DNA from: Aureococcus anophagefferens
Taxonomy: Eukaryota > Sar > Pelagophyceae > Pelagomonadales > Pelagomonadaceae
DNA length: 64,000 nucleotides
NCBI RefSeq assembly: GCF_000186865.1
Contig: NW_008705578.1
Location: 736,274-800,273, forward strand
Direction of reading: 5' to 3'
Below, piece by piece: positions 24,730 to 54,767 of this stretch. Each line of letters opens with the position of its first letter. Position 1 is the stretch's first letter. Below the pieces are notes generated by a model. That model did not search any database. It was not told the origin of the DNA and worked only from the letters and a program-made list of their open reading frames with translations. The translations under genes and the position numbers were made by a program.

Positions 24730-25491
24730 CTACGCGCCGGGCGGCCGCGCCATCGTCGCGCGCCGGTACCGGTTGCCGCCGCCCTTGGCGGCGCGGGACA
24801 TGGCGACGGCGACGCGGGACCGGGGCTCGGCGAGGTCGGAGACGTGGTCGTCTTCGCCGGGCCACGCGTCCGGGACGCCCCACTGCGAGCGGATGAAGGC
24901 GTAGATCGGGTCGCAGTCGCGCGTCCAGTCGCAGCTCGGGGTCGCGCGGCAGAGCGCCTTGTCCAGGGGCTCGAGGTGGAGCAGCGTCGACCGCGCGACG
25001 CCGTCGTCGAGGTCGACCTTGATCTCGTCGCGGCCGTGCGCGATGTTCGGGTACTTGGCGTAGAGGCGCCGCACGGACGTCCACATGCGCTTTAACTGCG
25101 CTCGGTTCTCGTCGGCGCGCGCCGCGTCGGGGATGCCCCGCACGCCCAGCGCGAGGTCCTCCTTGGGACGCAATTTCCGCCGGAGCCACTCGTCCGCGAG
25201 CTCGTCGCGCGTGGGGTCGGAGACACCCGCCTGTTTCGCCTCGGCCTCGAGGGCCCGCGTGTACCAGGACAGGGCGTCGAGGAGCGTCTCCGGCTTCGTC
25301 GCGTTGATGCGGTCCAGCGTGAGGTCGTACTCCTTGTGGAAGCGCGCCTCGCGCTCGTCCTCGAGCTGCTCGAAGTGCTCCTTCTGGTGCTTGTAGAGCG
25401 CGAAGGCGAAGGCCGTGCTCCCGACGCAGACATTCATAAAACCCGCCTCGCCCGTCGTCAGGCTCTGGAGGAAGGCGCGCAATCGAGCCAT
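24730..25491 (-). CDS. Unrecognised protein, 253 residues
   Basis: The start is the ATG at 25491; the frame extends upstream only through non-ATG codons. The N-terminus has one short hydrophobic stretch (FMNVCVGSTAFAFALYKH, about residues 18-35). A charged helix follows (EHFEQLEDEREARFHKEYD), then a globular region with DDGVARSTLLHLEPLDKALC and CDPIYAFIRSQWGVPDAW. The tail is basic (SRAAKGGGNRYRRATMARP). It may be anchored to a membrane, with most of the protein on one side. No family recognised. The terminal GCGTAG is also a perfect match to the local splice-acceptor form, so the true C-terminus could lie beyond a missed intron. Confidence 0.5.
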   Translation of the reverse strand: MARLRAFLQSLTTGEAGFMNVCVGSTAFAFALYKHQKEHFEQLEDEREARFHKEYDLTLDRINATKPETLLDALSWYTRALEAEAKQAGVSDPTRDELADEWLRRKLRPKEDLALGVRGIPDAARADENRAQLKRMWTSVRRLYAKYPNIAHGRDEIKVDLDDGVARSTLLHLEPLDKALCRATPSCDWTRDCDPIYAFIRSQWGVPDAWPGEDDHVSDLAEPRSRVAVAMSRAAKGGGNRYRRATMARPPGA

Positions 25492-25554
25492 CGGCTTTGT
25501 GGCCCGGGGCAGCCTTCCCCTGGAGGCGAATTCGACATGCGAGCCCACGATGCT

Positions 25555-25648
25555 GTTCAACAAGCCAACGTTTTACTTCAACGACACGGCGCACGAGCGG
25601 ATAATTCACGGTGCATCTTCAACAAGCCAGCGTGTTACTTCGACGACG
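25555..25648. repeat. Duplicated 32-bp segment at a gene 3' end
   Basis: TTCAACAAGCCA starts both copies (25555-25586 and 25617-25648), which agree at 28 of 32 positions and are 62 bases apart. The second copy contains the stop codon and last codons of the PHD-finger gene on the minus strand. The first copy repeats that gene end downstream of it, with an equivalent in-frame TAA. Confidence 0.85.
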
Positions 25649-27227
25649 CCCAGCGGCCGGCGCAGGCCGGGCAGAGCCACTCGGCGGTCTCGGGCACGCG
25701 GTCCAACGGCGGGTCGAGGCAGAACGTGTGGAGGGGCACGTTGCAGAGGTCGCAGAGGAGCAGGTCCGCGTCCTTCGCGTCCGTCGCGTCCTCGCAGACC
25801 GCGCAGACGACGTCCGCGTCGAGGTGCGCGCGGCTCGCGTAGCGGCGCATGCCCGCGCCGTTGTTGCGGTACTTCTCGAACTCGCAGAGGCAGTGCTCGA
25901 CGTTCTTGAGCGTGAGGCGCTTGCCCGCGAAGAACGCGAAGTCGAGGCCGAGGCTCCTGAAGGCGTCGCGCTGGACGCTCGCCAAGAGCTTCGCGAGGTC
26001 GAGCTCGTCGATGGGGTGGACCTTGCCGAAGCAGCGCGCGAGGCCCCGCTTCGCGCCGGGGCCGAGCATGACCCAGTCGTCCTCCGTCGCGGCGGCGTCC
26101 AAGACGTCGGACTCGAAGAGGTCGCAGACGACCTGCCACGCGAGGAAGGGGCCGACGTTGTTCAGCGTGCGCAGCTTCTTGAAGACGGCCTCGACGTCGC
26201 CCCGCAGCGCGAAGACCTCCGCGCCGAGCGCGCCGAGCCGCGCGCGGACGTCGCCCATCGTCGCCAGGTAGCGCTCGAGGCCCATCGTCTGGTGCGCGTT
26301 GGAGAAGATGGGCCCCCGCGCGTGCGCGTCGCGGAGGAAGGCGGCGAAGGCGTTCCAGGACTTGGGCTCCGGCGACGGGATGCCGCCGCCGGGCCGCCAG
26401 GCCGACGCGAAGGTCTCGATCTTGTTCAGGAGCCGATACGCGAGGCTCTCCCAGAGCGCGTCCTTGAACGCGGCCTCCGGCGCCTCGGCGGCGCCGCGCT
26501 TCGCGGCGCGCGACCGCTTCCGCTGCTCCACGCAGCGGCGGAAGTAGATCGTGCCCCGGTCGAGCTCGCGGTAGTTGTTGCAGAAGACGTACTCGCGCAG
26601 CAGGCCGTCGTCCGTCCACGGCGGGTCGCCGCCCGTCGCGCGCTTCCGCCAGATCTCCTGGCGCTCGTGCACGAAGGCGAAGAAGGCCGCGACGTCCTCG
26701 GCGGCGCCGCCGCGCCCCCGCGGCAGCAGGGGCCGCACCGCGTCGCCGCGCGCCGCGCGCCGCGCGGCCGCCGCGGGGTCGTCGTCGGTCTTCCGCTTCT
26801 TCGGGTTCGGCGCGTCGGCCCAGGGCGCGTGCGCCTCGCCGTCGTTCGCGTCGTCCCAGGCGACGCGGTTGTAGCGCACGCCCCGCTCGATGGTGCCGTC
26901 GTCGTAGGCCACGCAGCACCGCCACGCGCCGACGGCGCCGGCCTTGACGCGGTAGACCGCGCCGCCGAAGCGCTTCGACGTCCAGGTCACGCTCGCGCGC
27001 GCCGGCGGCGTCACGGGCGCGCCGCGCTCGCCGTCGAGCCACGCGCGCAGCGCGCGGCCGTCGAGCGGCGCATCCTCGGCGCCGAGCGCGCGCAGCGTCG
27101 CCAGCGGCGTCCAGAAGAGGTAGTTGTTCTTGCCGGAGCCGGCGCTCACGAGGAATTCGTCGTCGCCTCGGCTATCTTCGAGGTAGCATCGCCGCGTGCC
27201 CTCGGCGTCGACGTGGACGACCTTCAT
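25635..27227 (-). CDS. Thymine-hypermodification-type (aGPT-Pplase/5-hmdU-kinase helical) domain fused to a PHD finger
   Basis: 530 residues, single exon. The central domain (about 175-445) has HERQEIWRKR, then PPWTDDGLLREYVFCNNYRE with LDRGTIYF, then KIETFASAW, IFSNAHQT and NVGPFLAWQVVCDLFE. This is the conserved series of the alpha-glutamyl/putrescinyl-thymine pyrophosphorylase superfamily, also called the 5-hmdU DNA kinase helical domain. In phages such enzymes work on 5-hydroxymethyluracil-derived bases in DNA. The C-terminus (about 474-524) is a complete PHD finger: CAVC, LLCDLC, HTFC, WLCPAC. The N-terminus has a Tudor/chromo-like segment (WRCCVAYDDGTIERGVRYN) and a basic PKKRK nuclear signal. 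Reading: a chromatin-bound enzyme that recognises or changes modified thymine; the target base is inference. Its 3' end is duplicated downstream. Confidence 0.75.
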   Translation of the reverse strand: MKVVHVDAEGTRRCYLEDSRGDDEFLVSAGSGKNNYLFWTPLATLRALGAEDAPLDGRALRAWLDGERGAPVTPPARASVTWTSKRFGGAVYRVKAGAVGAWRCCVAYDDGTIERGVRYNRVAWDDANDGEAHAPWADAPNPKKRKTDDDPAAAARRAARGDAVRPLLPRGRGGAAEDVAAFFAFVHERQEIWRKRATGGDPPWTDDGLLREYVFCNNYRELDRGTIYFRRCVEQRKRSRAAKRGAAEAPEAAFKDALWESLAYRLLNKIETFASAWRPGGGIPSPEPKSWNAFAAFLRDAHARGPIFSNAHQTMGLERYLATMGDVRARLGALGAEVFALRGDVEAVFKKLRTLNNVGPFLAWQVVCDLFESDVLDAAATEDDWVMLGPGAKRGLARCFGKVHPIDELDLAKLLASVQRDAFRSLGLDFAFFAGKRLTLKNVEHCLCEFEKYRNNGAGMRRYASRAHLDADVVCAVCEDATDAKDADLLLCDLCNVPLHTFCLDPPLDRVPETAEWLCPACAGRWASSK

Positions 27228-27901: not shown

Positions 27902-28071
27902 CGTCGCTTGTTTGTTTAAGGAGGTCGTGTAAGCGTCGGTTAACTTGTGGTTCAACAAGCCGTCGATGAGTTCATGATGCAGTGACGCGGTTCTTGAAAT
28001 TCGACTCCGGCTGCCCGAGGCCGTTGCAGCCGGCTGGGAACGTCCACCAGGAAGAGTCCAACCTTCGCACG

Positions 28072-30545
28072 ATGGACGCGGATGCCGGCGTCGCGCTCAC
28101 CGAGACGGACAAGGAGAAGAGCATCGATGAGGCTAAGCCGGCGGAGCCGCTGCCGGACATGGGGTTCTCGCCGGACATGGACGAGACGGGCGCCGGCTGT
28201 GCAGAGCGGCGTCCGTCGTCGTTTTCGAACTATCTTTCGTCGTCGCGCGATCTCGCGGGCGCGGCCTCGCACCCTGCCGCGGGGCGACCGAGGCGATCTC
28301 GCGGGCGCGCACTCGTCCGTCTCGACCACCATCCGCGGACGCGCGACCTCCGACGGCCTCCGACGCGATCCCCCCTCCCCGTAGGCAACGTCTGCATGCC
28401 GCCGGGCGGCATCGTCGGCGCGGACAAGTACGACTACAAGTACCTCTGCCTGCCGTCGATGCCCTGGTCCAAGGGCGGCGTCGCGCCGCCCAAGTTCCTG
28501 TCCAAGGACGAGCGCCTGCCGCTCGTCGTCGCGCTCACCATGGGCCTGCAGCACGCGCTGGCCATGGTCGCGGGCATCGCCACGTCCGGCGGCCTGCTCA
28601 TCGCCGGCGACGCGTGCTTCCCCTGGCAGAAGGACTCCGCCATGTGCGACGCGCGCGAGTACATGATCTCCGCCGCGTGGATCACGTCGGGCATCCTCAC
28701 GATCATCCAGGTCTTCCGCGCGAAGATCCTCGGCACGCCGTTCTACCTCGGCACGGGCCTGATTTCGGTCATGGGCACGTCGTTCACGTTCCTGCCCATC
28801 GCGCGCGAGATGGTCATCCGCGAGATCCGCGACGCGTCCGCGTCCGGCAAGTGCGACGGCGGCGACTGCCGCGGCTTCGGCAAGGAGGGCTACGGCAAGT
28901 TCCTCGGCACGTGCATGGTCGCGTCGCTCTTCGAGATCGCCATAAGTATGATGCCGTCCAAGGTCCGCAAGCGCCTCTTCCCGCCCGTCGTCACGGGCGC
29001 GGCCGTCATGCTCATCGGCGTGAGCCTCATCTCGTCCGGCATCAAGTACGTCGGCGGCGGCGTCTTCTGCGGCGAGAACGACTTCTCCCGGGCCGCGGCG
29101 TTCGGCGACCCCCAGTACTGCAACGAGAACGGGAACGTGATCCTGCCGTTCGGGTCGGCCGAGTACGTCGGCCTCGCCGCGTCCGTGATCGCGTTCACGG
29201 TCTTCGCCCAGTTCGCCGGGAGCCCCTTCCTCAAGAGTACGTGCATCTTCTGGGGCCTCATGTTCGGCTGCTTCGTCGCCGGCGTGTCGCGCTACGAGGC
29301 CGTCGAGGGCGACATGACCTTCGACTTCCACACGTCCAACGGCCGCGTCCAGGCGGTCATGGTGGCCGCGGTGCCGGGCCGCAAGTACAAGTACTTCAAC
29401 GACTACAAGATCCGCAACGCGCCGTGGTTCACGTTCCTCTGGGACATCACGTTCCCGCTGGGCTTCTCCAAGGAGTACTTCCTGCCCATCGTCATCGGCT
29501 TCTTCGTCTCGACGGCGGAGACCATCGGCGACGTCACGAACACGTGCTTCTACTCGCGGCTCCCGACGGAGGGCGCCGACTTCGAGTCGCGCGTCCAGGG
29601 CGGGCTGCTGGCCGACGGCGTCAACTCGCTGCTCGCGGCGCTCTTCACGTCGCCGCCCAACACGACCTTCTCGCAGAACAACGGCGTGATCCAGCTCACG
29701 CAGTGCGCGTCGCGCGCCGCGGGCTTCGCCTGCGCGTTCTGGCTGATCCTCTTCGGCGTCATCGGCAAGATCGGCGCGGCGTTCTCGTCGATCCCCATCT
29801 GCGTCGTCGGCGGCGTCGTGTTGCAGTGCTTCGCCATGGTCTTCGTCTCCGGCATGAACATCGCGACGCGCCACGCGACGCGCCGCAACAACTACATCCT
29901 CATGGTCGCGTTGGCGCTCGGCATCGGCGTCGGCATGGAGCCCCAGCTCTTCGAGGGCGGCGGGCCCGCGGCGTTCTACGGCGGCAACCTTCGCCACAAC
30001 ATCGGATTTTGGCCGCGCCACAAGACCTGCGACGTCTTCCCGTCCGTCACGACGACGAACACGGTGACGGCGGCGTCCTGCGATTTGGACGGATACGTGT
30101 GGACGTCGGGCGACGAGGCCTTCGAGACGACGTGCGCGGATTTGGGCGGCGTCTACGCCGCGGCCGTCACCGAGGACGTCACGGAGACGGTCAAGACCTG
30201 CACGAACAACAACGGCTTTTCGGCAGCGTCCTGTGGCGGTGACGATTTTCGAGAGATTTTGACCGGGAAAACGAAGAGAAATTGTTACCGACATGCTTGG
30301 TAGGTTTCTGCTGCCTCGAGTACGACGACACCAAGGATGCGAACCGGACGACGACGATCATCCTCCTCAAGACGACCTACGGCATCGGCTTCCTCGCCGC
30401 GCTCTTCCTCCACATCATCCTCCCCGAGGACGCCGTCGACCCGGACGACCCCTACGCCGAAAATCCCGCCAGCGACCTCAAGTACCCCACTGCGGGCCAG
30501 CACTCGCTCGCCCTCGCCGGCCACCCCGAGCCGGCCGAGGCGTGA
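28072..30545 (+). CDS. NCS2/NAT-family nucleobase (xanthine/uracil/ascorbate) transporter
   Basis: Three exons: 28072-28198, 28385-30238 and 30304-30545. The introns are 186 and 65 bases, ending CCGTAG and GGTAG; total 740 residues. The first intron is in frame with no stop, so its splicing rests on the restored TGAGCNVCMPPGG joint and the boundaries. The protein has about 12-14 hydrophobic helices. QHALAMVAG is in TM1, STAETIGDVTNTCF in the TM8 region, and QNNGVIQLTQ (about residue 473) is the family signature. It imports purines/pyrimidines or related acids with a cation. A Cys-rich loop follows near the C-terminus, before the last helix (GIGFLAALFLHIILPE). The tail is cytosolic. Confidence 0.9.
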
Positions 30546-41508: not shown

Positions 41509-43488
41509 ATGGCGGCAGCCCCGATGAGCCGGCCGCGCGCCGGCGCGCCGATCTGGGACAAAGGGCCGAAGCTCACGACGGCGCGCGGCTCCGAGGCCGG
41601 CGGCGTGCGCGTCGTCGGTCGCCGCACGTGCGTCAACTGCGGCAGCACCGCTGTCTTTAAATATGTCGGGCAGCAGGTCTGCGACGAGTGCCAGATGCTC
41701 GTTTTGTCGCGCCGGCGCACGGGCGAGCAGCTGGACAACGGCCAGCCCCGCGCGGGCCTCTGCGGCGGCGGCGGCCGCGTCGCCGCGCGCGCGCCGCGGG
41801 ACGCGCCCGTCGAGGGCTGGGCGTCCGCGCGCGGCGTCGCGCGCCGCGCGGAGGCGCGCCGGGAGGCGGCCTGGGCGAGGGAGCCCGCGTCGCCGCCGCC
41901 GGCGGACCCGCCGCGCCGCGAGCCGCGGGCGACGCGGCCCGTCGAGGCCCGGCTCTACCGCGACGCCGTCGATCGGAGGGGCGCGCGCGGCGCGCCGCGC
42001 GGCGTCGCCGTCCGCCGCGGCGGCGCGGCGCCCCAGCGGGCGCCCCGGGGCGTCTGCCGCGAGCTCCACGCGCGGGAGCGCCGGCCGGGCCACCGCCACG
42101 GAAGCGTCGCCGGCGCGGCGCGCTTCGGGCACGCGGCTCGGTTCCCGGACGGCGCGAAGGCGTCCGAGGCGAGCGCGCACGTGGTGCTGGCGGCCGCGGT
42201 CGTGGCGTTTACGTATGCCAACGCCCTGGGGCGCCTCGCCTTCTACGACGAGCTCGACGAGGACGCGGCGCCCCCGGTCGCGACCGAGCCCCTGGCCGCG
42301 GCGCTCGGCGACGCGGCCGTCGCGGCCGCCGACGACGACGACTACGGCTCCGACGCCTTCGAGGACGACGAGCAGCCCGTCGCGAAGGAGAACGTGCGGC
42401 CCGCCGCGAAGGGGCCGCCGAAGCCGCCGCCGCCGATGCCGCTCTTCGACCGGCTGCACGCGTCGCGGCACACGGCGAAATCCGCGGCGCGGCGCGTCTT
42501 CGCCGTCTTCGCGCGCGGCGTCCTGCGCCGCGCCTGGCCGCGGCTCCTGCCCTACGAGGCGGCCCTCGCGCACTTTCGGGCCCTGGCGCACGCGCGGCAC
42601 CAGCCCGTCGCGCGCCACCCGTGGCCGCGGCGCGGCGACGGCAGGGCGAAAAAACCGTTCATGGGCATCGGCGAGTACTTCGAGCGCGCGCTCCTCGGGG
42701 GGCGGACCCGCGCCATGTGCGCGGCCGAGGCCAAGGCGACGCGCGAGCTCGCCGCGGAGCGCGCGGCGGAGAAGCGCGCGAAGCACCTCGCGGCCGAGGA
42801 CGCCAAGGACGTCCTCGGTCTCGGCCGCGAGGACGCCGGGCGGCTCATCCTCGGCTCGCGGAAGCTCACGGCGGCCGTGACGCGCGCGCCGCCGGCGACG
42901 CGCTTCGGGACGGCGCGGCGGGGCGCGCGGGGCCGCTGCGAACCGCCGCCGCCGCCGCCGCCCAGGAAGACGACGACGACGAAGAGGAAGCCGGTCGCAA
43001 AGCCGCCGCCCGCGCCGAAGGCGCCGCCCGAGCTCACCCCGTCGCCCGCGTCGCCGCCCGCCGCGCCGCCGGCGCCGCCGCCCGCGGAGCCGTCGGACAT
43101 CGCCGCGCCGGCCGAGCCGCCCGCCGCGTCGCCGGCCGCGTCGCCGCCGCGCGCCGAGGCCGCGCCGGACGTCGCCGCGCCGTCGCTGCCGTCGCCCGAA
43201 AAGGTCGAGACCGAGGCGCCCGCGCCCGCGGCGCCGGAGTACGACGACGAGTTCGAGGACGACGACGACGACGACGACGACTCCGAGGAGCGCCTCGCGC
43301 GCGCCGTCGCGCTGTCGATGGGCTCCTTCCCCGCGGGCGCGCGAGTCGACGCGCGCTTCGGCGGCGAGGACGACTGGTACCCGGGCACGGTCGCGCGCGC
43401 CCACGACGACGGCACCGTCGACATCGACTACGACGACGGCGACAAGGAAGCGCGGGTCGACGCGGCGCTCGTCCGGGCGCGGGCGTAA
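41509..43488 (+). CDS. Zinc-finger protein with acidic/Pro-rich middle and C-terminal Tudor-like domain
   Basis: 659 residues. Near the N-terminus, CVNCGSTAVFKYVGQQVCDE with one more Cys (CxxC...CxxC, about residues 41-62) forms a treble-clef or ribbon-type zinc site. The middle is Arg/Ala-rich, then acidic (DDDDYGSDAFEDDE). Next come a helical block (EYFERALLGGRTRAM, AEAKATRELAAERAA) and a Pro/Ala-rich linker. The C-terminus has VDARFGGEDDWYPGTVARAH and then VDIDYDDGDKEARV, a Tudor/agenet-type barrel as in readers of methylated histones. Overall: a nuclear chromatin-associated adaptor by analogy. The start is the first ATG. Single exon. Confidence 0.6.
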   Translation: MAAAPMSRPRAGAPIWDKGPKLTTARGSEAGGVRVVGRRTCVNCGSTAVFKYVGQQVCDECQMLVLSRRRTGEQLDNGQPRAGLCGGGGRVAARAPRDAPVEGWASARGVARRAEARREAAWAREPASPPPADPPRREPRATRPVEARLYRDAVDRRGARGAPRGVAVRRGGAAPQRAPRGVCRELHARERRPGHRHGSVAGAARFGHAARFPDGAKASEASAHVVLAAAVVAFTYANALGRLAFYDELDEDAAPPVATEPLAAALGDAAVAAADDDDYGSDAFEDDEQPVAKENVRPAAKGPPKPPPPMPLFDRLHASRHTAKSAARRVFAVFARGVLRRAWPRLLPYEAALAHFRALAHARHQPVARHPWPRRGDGRAKKPFMGIGEYFERALLGGRTRAMCAAEAKATRELAAERAAEKRAKHLAAEDAKDVLGLGREDAGRLILGSRKLTAAVTRAPPATRFGTARRGARGRCEPPPPPPPRKTTTTKRKPVAKPPPAPKAPPELTPSPASPPAAPPAPPPAEPSDIAAPAEPPAASPAASPPRAEAAPDVAAPSLPSPEKVETEAPAPAAPEYDDEFEDDDDDDDDSEERLARAVALSMGSFPAGARVDARFGGEDDWYPGTVARAHDDGTVDIDYDDGDKEARVDAALVRARA

Positions 43489-43640: not shown

Positions 43641-46606
43641 ATGCTTCGCCTCGTCGTGGCCCTCGCCTCGGCGGCGACGGCGCGCCCCCCGCGCCTCCGG
43701 AAGCGCATTGACCCGCGCTCGACCCCGTCGTCCCTCCGCAGGCGCGCGCCAACGTCATGGGCATCGACTTCGGGACGGAGTTCATGAAGGTGGCGCTGGT
43801 GCAGCCCGGCGCGCCCCTGGAGATCGTGACGAACCACGTGTCGAAGCGGAAGACGGAGACGTCCGTGGCCTTCGTGCGCGGCGAGCGGCTCTTCGGCTCG
43901 GACGCGTACGGCATGCTGAGCCGCAAGCCCGAGCAGGCGTACGCGCGGCTCACGGAGTTCCTCGGGCGCAGCGACTCGCACCCGGCGGTGACGACGCTGC
44001 TGCGCAAGTCCTACCTGCCGACGACGGTGCGCTTCAACGCGACGCGCGGCGCGCTCGCGCTCGGCGCGCCGGCGTCGACGACGCAGGAGTACGGCGGCAC
44101 GTGGACGGAGTGGACGCCCGAGGAGCTCGTGGCCATGATCTTGAGCTACGCCAAGGACATCACGCGGGCCTACGGCGGCAACGTCGTGCGCGACTGCGTC
44201 ATCACGGTGCCGACGTTCGCGACGCAGCTCGAGCGCGAGGCGCTGCTCGTCGCCGCGGAGCTCGCGGACATGCGCGTGCTGAGCCTCATCGAGGCGAACA
44301 CGGCGGCGGCGCTCCAGTTCGGGTTGGACCGCAAGTACGAGGAGACGAAGGTCATCCTCTTCTACAACGCGGGCTCCGAGTCCGTGCAGGCGTCGCTCGT
44401 CGAGTACTCGACGTTCCCGGACAAGGGCGGCGGCAAGAACAAGACCGTGGGCCAGTTCGAGGTCAAGGGCAAGGGCTGGAAGAAGGGCGCCGGCGGCTTC
44501 GCGATTGATTTGGCGCTCACGGAGCTCCTGGCCGACGGCTTCAACAAGAAGTGGAACGCGAAGAAGCAGAAGGGCGACGTCCGGACGATCCCCCGCGCCA
44601 TGGCCAAGATCCGCGCGGCGGCGAAGAAGACCAAGGAGGTGCTGAGCGCCAACGAGAAGATCCCCGTGGGCATCCCGTCGCTCCACGACGACATCGACTT
44701 CTCCATGACGCTCACGCGGCCCGAACTCGAGAAGGCGGCCGCGGAGGTCCTCGACGTCGCGACGCAGCCCATCGTCGACGCGCTGAACGCGGCGAACATG
44801 ACCGTCGACGACATCGACGGCGTCGAGATCATCGGCGGCGGCGTGCGCGTGCCCCGGGTCCAGGCCGTGCTCAAGGAGTTCCTCGCGGAGCGGCGGACGA
44901 ACAAGAGCGACGTGCCCGAGCTCTCCGTGCACCTCAACGGCGACGAGGCCGTGGCGTTAGGCGCCGCCTTCCACGGCGCCAACGTCAGCACGTCCTTCCG
45001 CGTGCGCAAGGTCGGCATGATGGACTACACGCCCTTCCCCGTGGGCGTGAAGATGGCGAACGACGCGCACGCGGCGTCCCTGAAAGACGAGGGCGGCCTC
45101 CTCGGCTTCTTCAAGGGCGGCACGAAGGAGCACGAGGTCGACGCCGACTGGCACAAGCGCGCGACGCTCTTCAAGCAGGGCGCGCGCCTCGGCGCGAAGC
45201 CGCGGACCATCGCGTTCCACCACGAGGCCGACATCGTCTGCGAGCTCGCGTACGACGACGACGCGGAGCTGCCCGAGGGCACGCAGAAGACCATCGCGCT
45301 CTACAACATCTCGGGCATCGCCGCCTTCGCCGCCGAGATGGCCAAGCAGAACGCGAGCGGCGCGCTCCCGCGGCCCAAGGTCCAGCTGAGCTTCACGCTC
45401 GACAGCTCCGGGGTGTCGTCGCTGTCCAAGGCCGAGGTCTCCGTCGTCGAGGAGTACGAGGTCGACGCGCCGCCGCCGGAGGAGCCCAAGAAGAAGAAGG
45501 ACAAGAAGGACAAGAAGAAGGAGGCCGACGCGAACGCGACGGACGCGAACGCGACGGACGCCGAGGCCGCGGCCGAGGGCGAGGCCGCCGCCGAGGAGGC
45601 GGCGCCCGCGGCGGAGGAGGCGTCCGCGGCGGAGGAGGCGGCGCCCGCGGAGGAGGCGGCGCCCGCGTCCGAGGAGGCGGCGCCCGCGGAGGAGCGCAAG
45701 CTCGAGGAGGGCGACGAGGCCGCGGCGGCGAACGGGACGAACGCGACGACGCCGGGCAAGATCCTCAAGAAGAAGACGCACAAGCGCGCGCTGACCGTGA
45801 CGCCGTCCGTCGCGGGCCTGAGCCTCTGGGCCCAGAAGAAGAGCGACGTCGCGGACGCCGCGGACCGGCTGAAGCACATCGCGTCCGCCGAGGCGGTCCG
45901 CATGGAGCGCGAGGGCGCGAAGAACGACCTCGAGGCGGCCATCTACACGGTGCGCAACCAGATGTCCGACAAGGAGGACGCCGTGGCGCCCGTGTCCACG
46001 GAGGCGCAGCGCGAGGCCATCTCGGCCATGTCGACGGAGCTCGAGGACTGGCTCTACGAGTCCGACGGCGAGCCCGCGTCCACCTTCGTCGAGAAGCGCG
46101 GCGCTTTGGAGGGCCTCTGGGCCGCCGTCGTGTCCCGCGCCGAGGAGGCCGAGGCGCGGCCCAAGGCCGTGGCCAAGTTCCAGTCCGCGCTCGACGCGGC
46201 CAAGCTCAACGCGACGGAGGTCTGGGCGACGGAGAAGCCGTGGCTCCAGCAGCTCGACCTCGACGACCTCGTCGCCAAGGTCGACAAGGCCCAGGCCTGG
46301 CTCGACGACTCCGTCGCGGCCCAGGCGAAGCTCGAGGCCCACGACGACCCGGCCTTCAAGGTCTCGGACCTCGGGCTCAAGCTCAAGCCCGTCGCGACGC
46401 TCGCGACGCGCCTCGCGCTCAAGAAGAAGCCCATCGAGGCCAAGGTCGTCGACAAGAACGCCACGGACGCCAACGCCACGGACGCCAACGCCACGGACGC
46501 CAACGCCACGGACGCGGCCGACGAGCCCGCCGCGGAGCCGGAGAAGACCGCGGAGGAGCAAGAGGCGGAGGCGAAGCTCGAGGAGGAGATGAAGTCCGAG
46601 CTCTAG
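43641..46606 (+). CDS. HYOU1: ER HSP110/GRP170 chaperone
   Basis: Proposed exons 43641-43679 and 43742-46606, 967 residues. The first exon encodes only a signal peptide (MLRLVVALASAAT), and the joint gives RANVMGIDFGTEFMKVALVQ. The HSP70-type ATPase shows DFGTEFMKVA, LIEANTAAALQFGLDR and VEIIGGGVRVPRVQ. A long acidic insertion with Glu/Ala and Asn-Ala-Thr repeats, a helical lid region and a C-terminal KSEL follow. KSEL is a KDEL-type retrieval signal, so the protein is ER-lumenal. GRP170 proteins are exchange factors for BiP and hold unfolded clients. Near the end, NATD repeats four times. The intron begins with GC, not GT (GCGCGC...CGCAG), which is unusual. Confidence 0.85.
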
Positions 46607-53324: not shown

Positions 53325-54767
53325 ATGATGACCGCGGCGCCGGAGATCGCCTGGGGCGTGCTCGTGCGCACGCCGGACACGGACGCGCGGCACCCGCAGT
53401 TCGTGGCGCTCTGCGCCGAGAGCGTGGTGCTCGGCCGCCGGCCCGAGCGCTACCACGGCGCGCGCGCGGACCGCGTCCGGCTCGCCCACAGCCGCGTCTC
53501 CGGCGTGCAGTGCCTGCTGCACGTGAACCTCGACGGCGTGCGCCTCGAGCAGCACGCGCGCGCGAGCAACGAGACGAAGGTGAACGGCCACACCATCGCC
53601 GACGCGCGGCGGCTCGAGTCCGGCGACACGATCACGCTGCTGCAGAGTCGGGACGTGATCAAGTACGACTACTTCCCGGCGGGCGACGCCGGCGAGGACC
53701 GCCTCGTCGCGGCGCTCGAGGCGCGGGGGCGCGGCGCCGCGCGCGAGCTCGCCGCGGTCCGGGAAGAGGCCGCGCGGCTCCGGGCCGCGGCCGCCGACGA
53801 CGCGCGGCGCCTCGGCGCCGCGGAGGACGCCCTCGAGGCCCTGCGGCGGCGCGAGCTCGACGCCGTCGGCCGCGCGCGCCGCGACGAGCGGAGGCGGCGG
53901 GCGATCGTCCAGGACGCCGTCGGCCCGCTGGAGCGGCGGCTGCGGGAGGCGGACGGCCTCGACGCGCTGGCCGCCGAGCGCGACGCGGCCAACGCCGCCT
54001 TCGACCGCGAGCGCGAGCGCGCCGCGGGGCTCGCCGCGCGGCTCGCCGGCGTCCGGGCCGAGGGGAAATGCGAACTCCACACGCTCTTGGCGCTCGAGCT
54101 CGCGGCGGACGGCGCGCCGGGCGGCGACGACGACGACGTGGGCGGCGGCTTCGATGGCGGCGACGAGTCTATGGGCGACGACGGCTTTGGCGGCGATGGC
54201 TTTGGCGGCGGCGACGACGACGTGGGCGACGACGGCGGCGGCGGCTTCGACGACGCCGGCGGCGGCGGCGACGACCGCGTCGCGCCGTCGCCCGACGAGT
54301 TCGGGCTCGACGCCTTCCTCAAGGAGGCGGACCAGGAGCGGCGGTGGCGCCTGTCGCAGGAGCGGCGGCGCCTGTCGCAGGAGCGGTCGGACGCCGAGCT
54401 CGCCGCGGAGCTCGCGGCGCGGCCGCCGACGCCGGCCGACGGCGACCGGACGCGCCGCGACGCCGAGCTCGCCGCCGCGTGGCCGCCGACGCCGGCCCGT
54501 ACGGCGCCCGTCGACGACGACGACGACGACGGCGCGCGGTCGAGCTCCGACGACGGCGCGAGCTCCGCCGACGAGTCCGAGGCGCCGCCGTCCGCCGCGG
54601 AGGCCTTCGCGGGCCTCGGCGACGACGGCGCGCTCCGGGCCTTCCTCGCGGAGCGCCTCGCGGCCCAGGGCAACGCCGCGTCCGCGGCGGCGGCGCGCCG
54701 CGCGCTCGTGGCCGTCGCGCCCGCGGGATTCGCGGACGCGTACTGGTCGCGGCCGCCGGCGCGATAG
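53325..54767 (+). CDS. FHA-domain protein with coiled coil and Gly/Asp-rich middle
   Basis: 480 residues. The FHA domain (about residues 10-105) shows ESVVLGRRPERY, then LAHSRVSGVQC, then ASNETKVNGHTI and LESGDTITLL. The G-R, S-x-x-S and N-x-T-x-V-N-G positions needed for phosphothreonine binding are all present. A coiled coil follows (about 125-245), then a Gly/Asp-rich tract (GGDGFGGGDDDVGDDGGGG). Two copies of the RRLSQER motif and an acidic, Ser-rich C-terminus come next. It probably docks on phosphorylated partners in the nucleus. A second in-frame ATG follows the first. Single exon. Confidence 0.75.
   Translation: MMTAAPEIAWGVLVRTPDTDARHPQFVALCAESVVLGRRPERYHGARADRVRLAHSRVSGVQCLLHVNLDGVRLEQHARASNETKVNGHTIADARRLESGDTITLLQSRDVIKYDYFPAGDAGEDRLVAALEARGRGAARELAAVREEAARLRAAAADDARRLGAAEDALEALRRRELDAVGRARRDERRRRAIVQDAVGPLERRLREADGLDALAAERDAANAAFDRERERAAGLAARLAGVRAEGKCELHTLLALELAADGAPGGDDDDVGGGFDGGDESMGDDGFGGDGFGGGDDDVGDDGGGGFDDAGGGGDDRVAPSPDEFGLDAFLKEADQERRWRLSQERRRLSQERSDAELAAELAARPPTPADGDRTRRDAELAAAWPPTPARTAPVDDDDDDGARSSSDDGASSADESEAPPSAAEAFAGLGDDGALRAFLAERLAAQGNAASAAAARRALVAVAPAGFADAYWSRPPAR

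Follow-up and report, generated by a model that had tools for sequence, protein, structure and literature searches.

UHRF1 combines a Tudor domain and a PHD finger with SRA, a domain that reads a base. Base-modification systems in basidiomycetes and in chlorophyte and stramenopile algae are said to have been predicted computationally by Iyer et al. in 2013, as possible epigenetic marks. The hypermodified thymidine in the DNA of phage M6 is described as being made via 5hmdU and a 5hmdU DNA kinase (PMC6449724). Among eukaryotes, modified thymine in DNA is best known from two cases, base J with its precursor in kinetoplastids and their relatives (PMC11065753) and 5-hydroxymethyluracil (5hmU) in dinoflagellates (PMC11071213). 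Here, we describe a gene of the alga Aureococcus anophagefferens in which the HMUDK_hel domain of phages is followed by a PHD finger, and compare it with these systems.

The gene lies in a window of 64,000 nucleotides (the whole stretch of DNA analysed, from contig NW_008705578.1), on the minus strand at 25635..27227. Translation of the window gave 530 aa plus a stop from these positions, with zero internal stops; an intron is not needed, and the translation, the Pfam matches and an environmental protein of 530 aa that is 99% identical (P0002) indicate that this ORF is the whole gene. All motifs from which a sequence-only reading had called a phage-type thymine hypermodification domain (PPWTDDG, YVFCNNYRELDRG, KIETF, SNAHQT, VGPFLAWQV) were present in the translation, and Pfam confirmed the call, as residues 180-454 (25866..26690, minus strand) match PF18723 HMUDK_hel ('5-hmdU DNA kinase, helical domain') with an E value of 1.7e-44 (152.7 bits versus a cut-off of 25; model positions 5-272 of 281). 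The complete C-terminal PHD finger that had been proposed was likewise recovered at residues 475-522 (25662..25805, minus strand; PF00628, E 5.3e-11, 42.8 bits versus a cut-off of 24), covering model positions 1-47 of 47 with a complete Cys4-His-Cys3 zinc pattern; solved structures related to this finger are those of KMT2D, KMT2C, UHRF2, CHD4 and UHRF1. The protein also matched two PHROGs families (phrog_2396, E 1.9e-31; phrog_800, E 9.3e-10), and its domain matches are far above chance level. The third part of the proposed architecture, a Tudor-like N-terminus, was borne out in part: the segment had no Pfam Tudor match above cut-off, and a weak profile likeness to the Tudor segments of relatives (E 0.00069, probability 27%) makes residues 78-126 (26850..26996, minus strand) a tentative, weakly Tudor-like segment. 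Searches of the protein against NCBIfam returned no match, and Pfam detected in it no P-loop kinase domain, no SRA and no amino acid:DNA transferase domain (ADDT, PF18724).

Conservation was compared among 9 PHD-bearing rows (P0001 included), 23 other eukaryote-type rows, 8 glycosyltransferase-linked rows and 34 kinase-linked rows, with 13 'other' rows outside the reported groups. R189, R220, D223, A311, F361, D369, G389 and G391 were identical in 9/9, 23/23, 8/8 and 34/34 rows, respectively, and N217, N268, G395, C448, E449 and K452 had exceptions in at most one to two rows of any group. Every near-universal residue (R189, N217, R220, D223, N268, A311, F361, D369, the GPG triplet, G395, C448, E449 and K452) is retained in the window protein. 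Many of them fall into four motifs on the minus strand, namely NNYRELDRGT at residues 217-226 (26550..26579; N217, R220 and D223 near-universal), the HhH-like motif LNNVGPFLAWQVVCDLFE at residues 355-372 (26112..26165; F361 and D369 conserved), GPGAKRG at residues 389-395 (26043..26063) and EHCLCEFEKY at residues 444-453 (25869..25898; C448, E449 and K452 near-universal). Because the near-universal residues are retained, the core task of HMUDK_hel is probably shared among all groups. E221, R265, H312, E444 and H445 are kept in eukaryotes and differ in the kinase-linked rows, so the pockets of these two sets of proteins may not be identical. With the PF18723 match and the conserved residues both in place, the family assignment of the sequence-only reading stands.

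HMUDK_hel domains are common in phages (91 records). In Pseudomonas phage M6, gp51 is ADDT, gp54 the kinase, gp55 the HMUDK_hel protein, gp56 Nmad5 and gp58 a thymidylate-synthase-like protein; gp54 is annotated as 'terminase small subunit' and matches PF18748 with an E value of 7.7e-18. The algal protein belongs to the same PF18723 family as gp55 (52% of the query aligned, 28% identity), and both keep the near-universal residues. However, gp55 is a protein of 323 aa without chromatin domains that adjoins the kinase gp54, whereas its algal counterpart ends in a PHD finger and comes from a genome in which no kinase was detected. HMUDK_hel and kinase are fused in one protein of Bacillus phage Goe26. 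Two phage genes annotated as 'terminase small subunit' resemble 5-hmdU DNA kinases (L085:8381-8944, which is M6 gp54, and L087:5465-6034 of PaMx11, sub-threshold). Relatives were also seen in 11 archaeal or bacterial loci (L096-L106), nearly all from MAGs (Nanoarchaeota, Woesearchaeota, CPR groups, Sulfuricurvum).

The neighbours of HMUDK_hel were counted in the best 80 of 111 viral loci, using models built for this purpose (kinase, TAGT, TS, GT-like and ADDT genes) and seeded partly from loci later counted. Among these 80 loci, the TET-associated glycosyltransferase TAGT was found in 58, a kinase in 8, ADDT in 3 (all three with a kinase), another GT-like gene in 3, and none of the four in 11; 73 have a thymidylate-synthase-like (TS-like) gene. 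Kinase and glycosyltransferase occurred together in none of the 80. An alternative kinase model also picks L014 and L019, both without a glycosyltransferase; the kinase label of L010 is below the Pfam cut-off, and the GT-like label of L005 and L006 was given by eye, without a Pfam match. As 57 of the 80 loci form one cluster at 60% identity, the counts were also made by 21 clusters, which gave 2 clusters with TAGT, 3 with another GT-like gene, 7 with a kinase and 14 with a TS-like gene. TAGT (representative L020, E 1.3e-23) lies downstream of HMUDK_hel on the same strand in 58/58 loci, and the order HMUDK_hel, TAGT, thymidylate-synthase-like gene (L020:5492-8591) recurs in most other viral loci; in L020, a Pyr_excise gene precedes it. 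The idea that HMUDK_hel assists only the kinase was rejected, since none of the 58 loci with TAGT has a kinase. With different group-transfer enzymes as its neighbours, HMUDK_hel is the constant part in phages, and because it stands beside alternative enzymes that could act on 5hmU, it is probably a shared DNA-side module, not itself a kinase or a proven pyrophosphorylase. Relative to the prediction of Iyer et al., the viral switch between kinase and glycosyltransferase, like the host TAGT homologue below, is a count from the present analysis.

These neighbourhoods bear on whether HMUDK_hel could itself be the enzyme of the hypermodification step, attaching a group to 5hmU in DNA, with the PHD finger guiding this activity to chromatin. 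Conserved polar residues retained in all groups would suit such an activity, and so would the names that phage annotators give to relatives: aGPT-Pplase1 or alpha-glutamyl/putrescinyl thymine pyrophosphorylase clade 1 still appears for the HMUDK_hel domain in some phage records, so that the aGPT-Pplase name used by the sequence-only reading is current. However, ADDT and kinase are separate genes in M6 (gp51 and gp54), ADDT is present in 3 of the best 80 of 111 viral loci, most of which have a kinase or glycosyltransferase without ADDT, and the profile similarity between HMUDK_hel and ADDT is weak (E 0.004 by hhalign, probability 8.5%, and E 0.012). We therefore consider an enzymatic role of the domain itself unlikely, and the claim that HMUDK_hel is the hypermodifying enzyme lacked support in the form given, in view of the separate M6 genes and the glycosyltransferase neighbour in 58/80 viral loci; of the Pfam comparison, the HMUDK_hel match stood, and for ADDT the result was this weak similarity. 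Among the papers found under the names of these enzymes, none, judged by title, dealt with eukaryotic members.

Another reading would make the protein a factor of DNA repair or demethylation, in which chromatin domains would guide a DNA-glycosylase-like domain to hydroxymethylated or methylated bases for removal or flagging, much as in MBD4. The HhH-like VGPFLAWQ aligns on the hairpin of endonuclease III, relatives combine HMUDK_hel with a methyl-CpG-binding domain (MBD; P0016, 22.3 bits versus a cut-off of 21) or with a sub-threshold DNMT1 replication-foci domain (DNMT1-RFD; P0012), and the host genome has 13 DNA_methylase matches. However, the comparison with the endonuclease III helix-hairpin-helix was not significant (E 0.05, 0.048 and 0.018, the last with a probability of 2.5%), and an unrelated control alignment with thymidylate synthase gave 0.035. 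The lysine of endonuclease III, which has a known role, aligns with the invariant F361, and the phage relatives are located in DNA-modification clusters, not repair clusters. When 35 phage-type and prokaryotic rows were combined into a profile and compared with solved structures, the best E value was 0.15 and nothing credible emerged. Taken with its points in favour, a repair or demethylation role appears quite unlikely.

The window gene is not a one-off, as the same domain order is found in other algae. HMUDK_hel proteins carrying a PHD or Tudor domain were among the matches (19, 19 and 165) of three protein searches. A cluster at 99% identity to the window protein comprises 58 sequences, and the environmental proteins P0003 and P0004 share 59% and 56% identity over 100% of the query. 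Named sources are few, namely Chrysophaeum taylorii, Cyclotella cryptica, MMETSP transcripts (P0006, P0021) and A. anophagefferens itself (P0023, P0024). By precomputed Pfam, among 120 listed of the 165 proteins, 10 have PHD, 3 a PTM/DIR17 Tudor and 24 a thymidylate-kinase-like domain, and none of these 120 joins a kinase with PHD or Tudor in one protein; PTM/DIR17 Tudor was found in the relatives P0014, P0032, P0035 and P0038. With the 'eukaryote-type' label assigned from architecture and similarity, a PHD-like zinc pattern follows HMUDK_hel in 24/34 eukaryote-type proteins versus 0/96 others, a contrast that is weaker than it appears because a tail of at least 50 residues is present in 5/96 of the others (29/34 of the eukaryote-type proteins). 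Five of the ten eukaryote-type proteins without the pattern have fewer than 40 residues after HMUDK_hel. In a quick 91-row tree, 32 eukaryote-type rows fell within one 34-row group (SH-aLRT 96) together with P0048 and viral locus L019; its neighbours were viral loci L005-L010 and P0019/P0041 (support 86, not starred), and the 32 rows as a single clade were not rejected (p-AU 0.9). With the root and direction inferred, this fits a single ancient transfer out of a phage-like source and a later gain of the zinc finger.

An origin of the gene by recent insertion of a virus, or from a contig that is contamination, was also considered, as the central domain is so common in phages (91 records). The contig of the gene, however, is 800 kb long and belongs to a 49 Mb genome of 86 contigs, the adjoining ORF is fused to the gene in an A. 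anophagefferens model (P0024), and relatives with a PHD finger are found in Chrysophaeum taylorii and among MMETSP transcripts. On this synteny and these relatives the explanation was rejected as very improbable, and the algal host assumed by the sequence-only reading is supported. The public A. anophagefferens models of the gene are broken (P0023, P0024) or fused with the adjoining gene (P0024): P0023 covers 16% of the query at 85% identity; P0024 covers 14% at 100% identity and runs into the adjoining ORF at 24730-25563. The G+C content of the window is 64-77% in 2 kb blocks, and its ORFs 41509-43488, 43757-46606, 53325-54767 and 27982-30303 (+) correspond to a sub-threshold Tudor_5, HSP70, an FHA domain and a xanthine/uracil permease, respectively.

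The host genome was searched for the partners that HMUDK_hel has in phages. PF18748, PF18724 and PF18747 gave 0 matches in a profile search of the genome, for which positive controls recovered PF18748 in 3/3 phage records (2 above cut-off) and PF18724 in 2/3, with none for PF18747; a phage-type kinase or ADDT was undetected in the host. One TAGT homologue was found at C8:1356687-1357343 (L107:1345-2238; E 2.5e-14, and 2.5e-15 on the ORF), of which no close relative was present in the phage and viral collections searched. A second HMUDK_hel gene at C11:1002493-1003391 (L004:2880-4234; E 2.4e-13 and 9.1e-10) is divergent, consists of two open stretches in different frames, has KREDDR in place of YRELDR and is of unsure placement in the tree. 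Like the phage HMUDK_hel-TAGT-TS clusters (L020), the host thus has HMUDK_hel genes and a TAGT homologue; unlike in those clusters, the algal genes lie on separate contigs (C18, C11 and C8), and the algal TAGT is without a close phage or viral relative. Tet_JBP gave 0 matches in the genome at E 0.001, in a search without a positive control. The search for a TET/JBP partner that the sequence-only reading had suggested gave two matches, at C5:546298-546531 (L111) and C1:3477014-3477187 (L112), both below the curated cut-off of 34.9 bits (20.4 and 18.8 bits, or 17.8 and 16.9 in a second scan); at the lax threshold that recovered them, E. coli matches as well. By eye, the C5 protein has an HxD and a later His/Arg stretch, and it could be a divergent oxygenase that acts on thymine or 5mC. 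An SRA match on contig C6 means that the host already has a base reader of the usual kind, and HMUDK_hel as a substitute for a missing SRA was rejected on this account. DNMT5 has been tied to heavy linker-DNA methylation in A. anophagefferens (PMC9998398).

The undetected partner kinase would also suit a domesticated phage domain that serves in plain DNA or nucleosome binding, or in discriminating self from foreign DNA, with a modified base not involved today. A 2026 study reports that a bacterial defence system with experimental validation contains a 5-hydroxymethyluracil kinase domain, and that aGPT-Pplase belongs to another system that is so far a prediction (PMC13092281); these occurrences would make a role in self versus foreign discrimination possible. 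PADLOC models, however, had no match in the window protein, and the near-universal residues are kept, which argues against plain DNA binding, for which such residues would not be required. We regard this domestication as unlikely.

The reading that we prefer, to which we give slightly less than an even chance, is that of a nuclear chromatin protein whose HMUDK_hel domain would recognise a 5-hydroxymethyl pyrimidine in DNA, most likely 5hmU or a base derived from it and probably by flipping the base out. The PHD finger would anchor the protein to the histone H3 tail, a ligand suggested by its solved relatives, and the Tudor-like part would provide a second chromatin contact. HMUDK_hel might read the base only, or might present it to a separate transferase such as the TAGT of contig C8. 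The plan would resemble that of UHRF1, with a Tudor-like part, HMUDK_hel as modified-base module in the place of SRA, and a PHD finger. The likeness to UHRF1 and UHRF2 consists of a sequence-related PHD finger, a weak Tudor-like part and a putative base-binding domain; the difference is that the algal protein has HMUDK_hel in place of SRA. The chromatin reader is supported by the PF18723 and PHD matches, by a domain order that recurs in other algae, by the retained residues, by the constant part in phages, by the further chromatin domains (PTM/DIR17 Tudor and MBD) of eukaryotic relatives, and by the host search, which found a TAGT homologue but no phage-type kinase or ADDT. Against it count the sub-cut-off Tet_JBP matches, the residue differences of the kinase-linked rows, the separate SRA, the non-significant likeness to a glycosylase-like fold of the kind that would suit base flipping, and the single cluster that makes up 57 of the 80 viral loci. 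The earlier interpretation as a 'histone-reading enzyme or reader' is partly supported: the homology to a phage domain, the PHD finger, the residues and the algal host are carried over, and the domain itself as an enzyme is considered unlikely.

A further-reaching version of the chromatin reader, which we consider unlikely, would see a base-J-like mark, for which nuclear thymine would first be hydroxylated and the TAGT homologue of contig C8 would then add a sugar, while the Tudor-like/HMUDK_hel/PHD protein would target or read the mark on nucleosomes, the phage domain having been acquired early by eukaryotes. To our knowledge, no such modified base is known in A. anophagefferens. If this version is correct, the alga would have nuclear 5hmU, a glycosyltransferase and a binder linked to chromatin in common with the base J system of kinetoplastids as it is described (PMC11065753); a difference is that the host has no TET/JBP match above cut-off.

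In phages, the switch of partners points to a single DNA-side module that works with kinases in some loci and with glycosyltransferases in others; this would account for the frequent occurrence of a kinase-named domain where a kinase is missing. In the alga, the protein may, judging from its sequence, read or help make an unrecognised DNA mark. A. anophagefferens is maintained in culture (PMC12700378), and with a conserved chromatin protein that contains the 5hmU module of phages, the question of such a mark becomes testable. If the base-J-like version were true, it would point to a eukaryotic epigenetic system beyond kinetoplastids and euglenids, common to stramenopile algae and perhaps to other eukaryotes.
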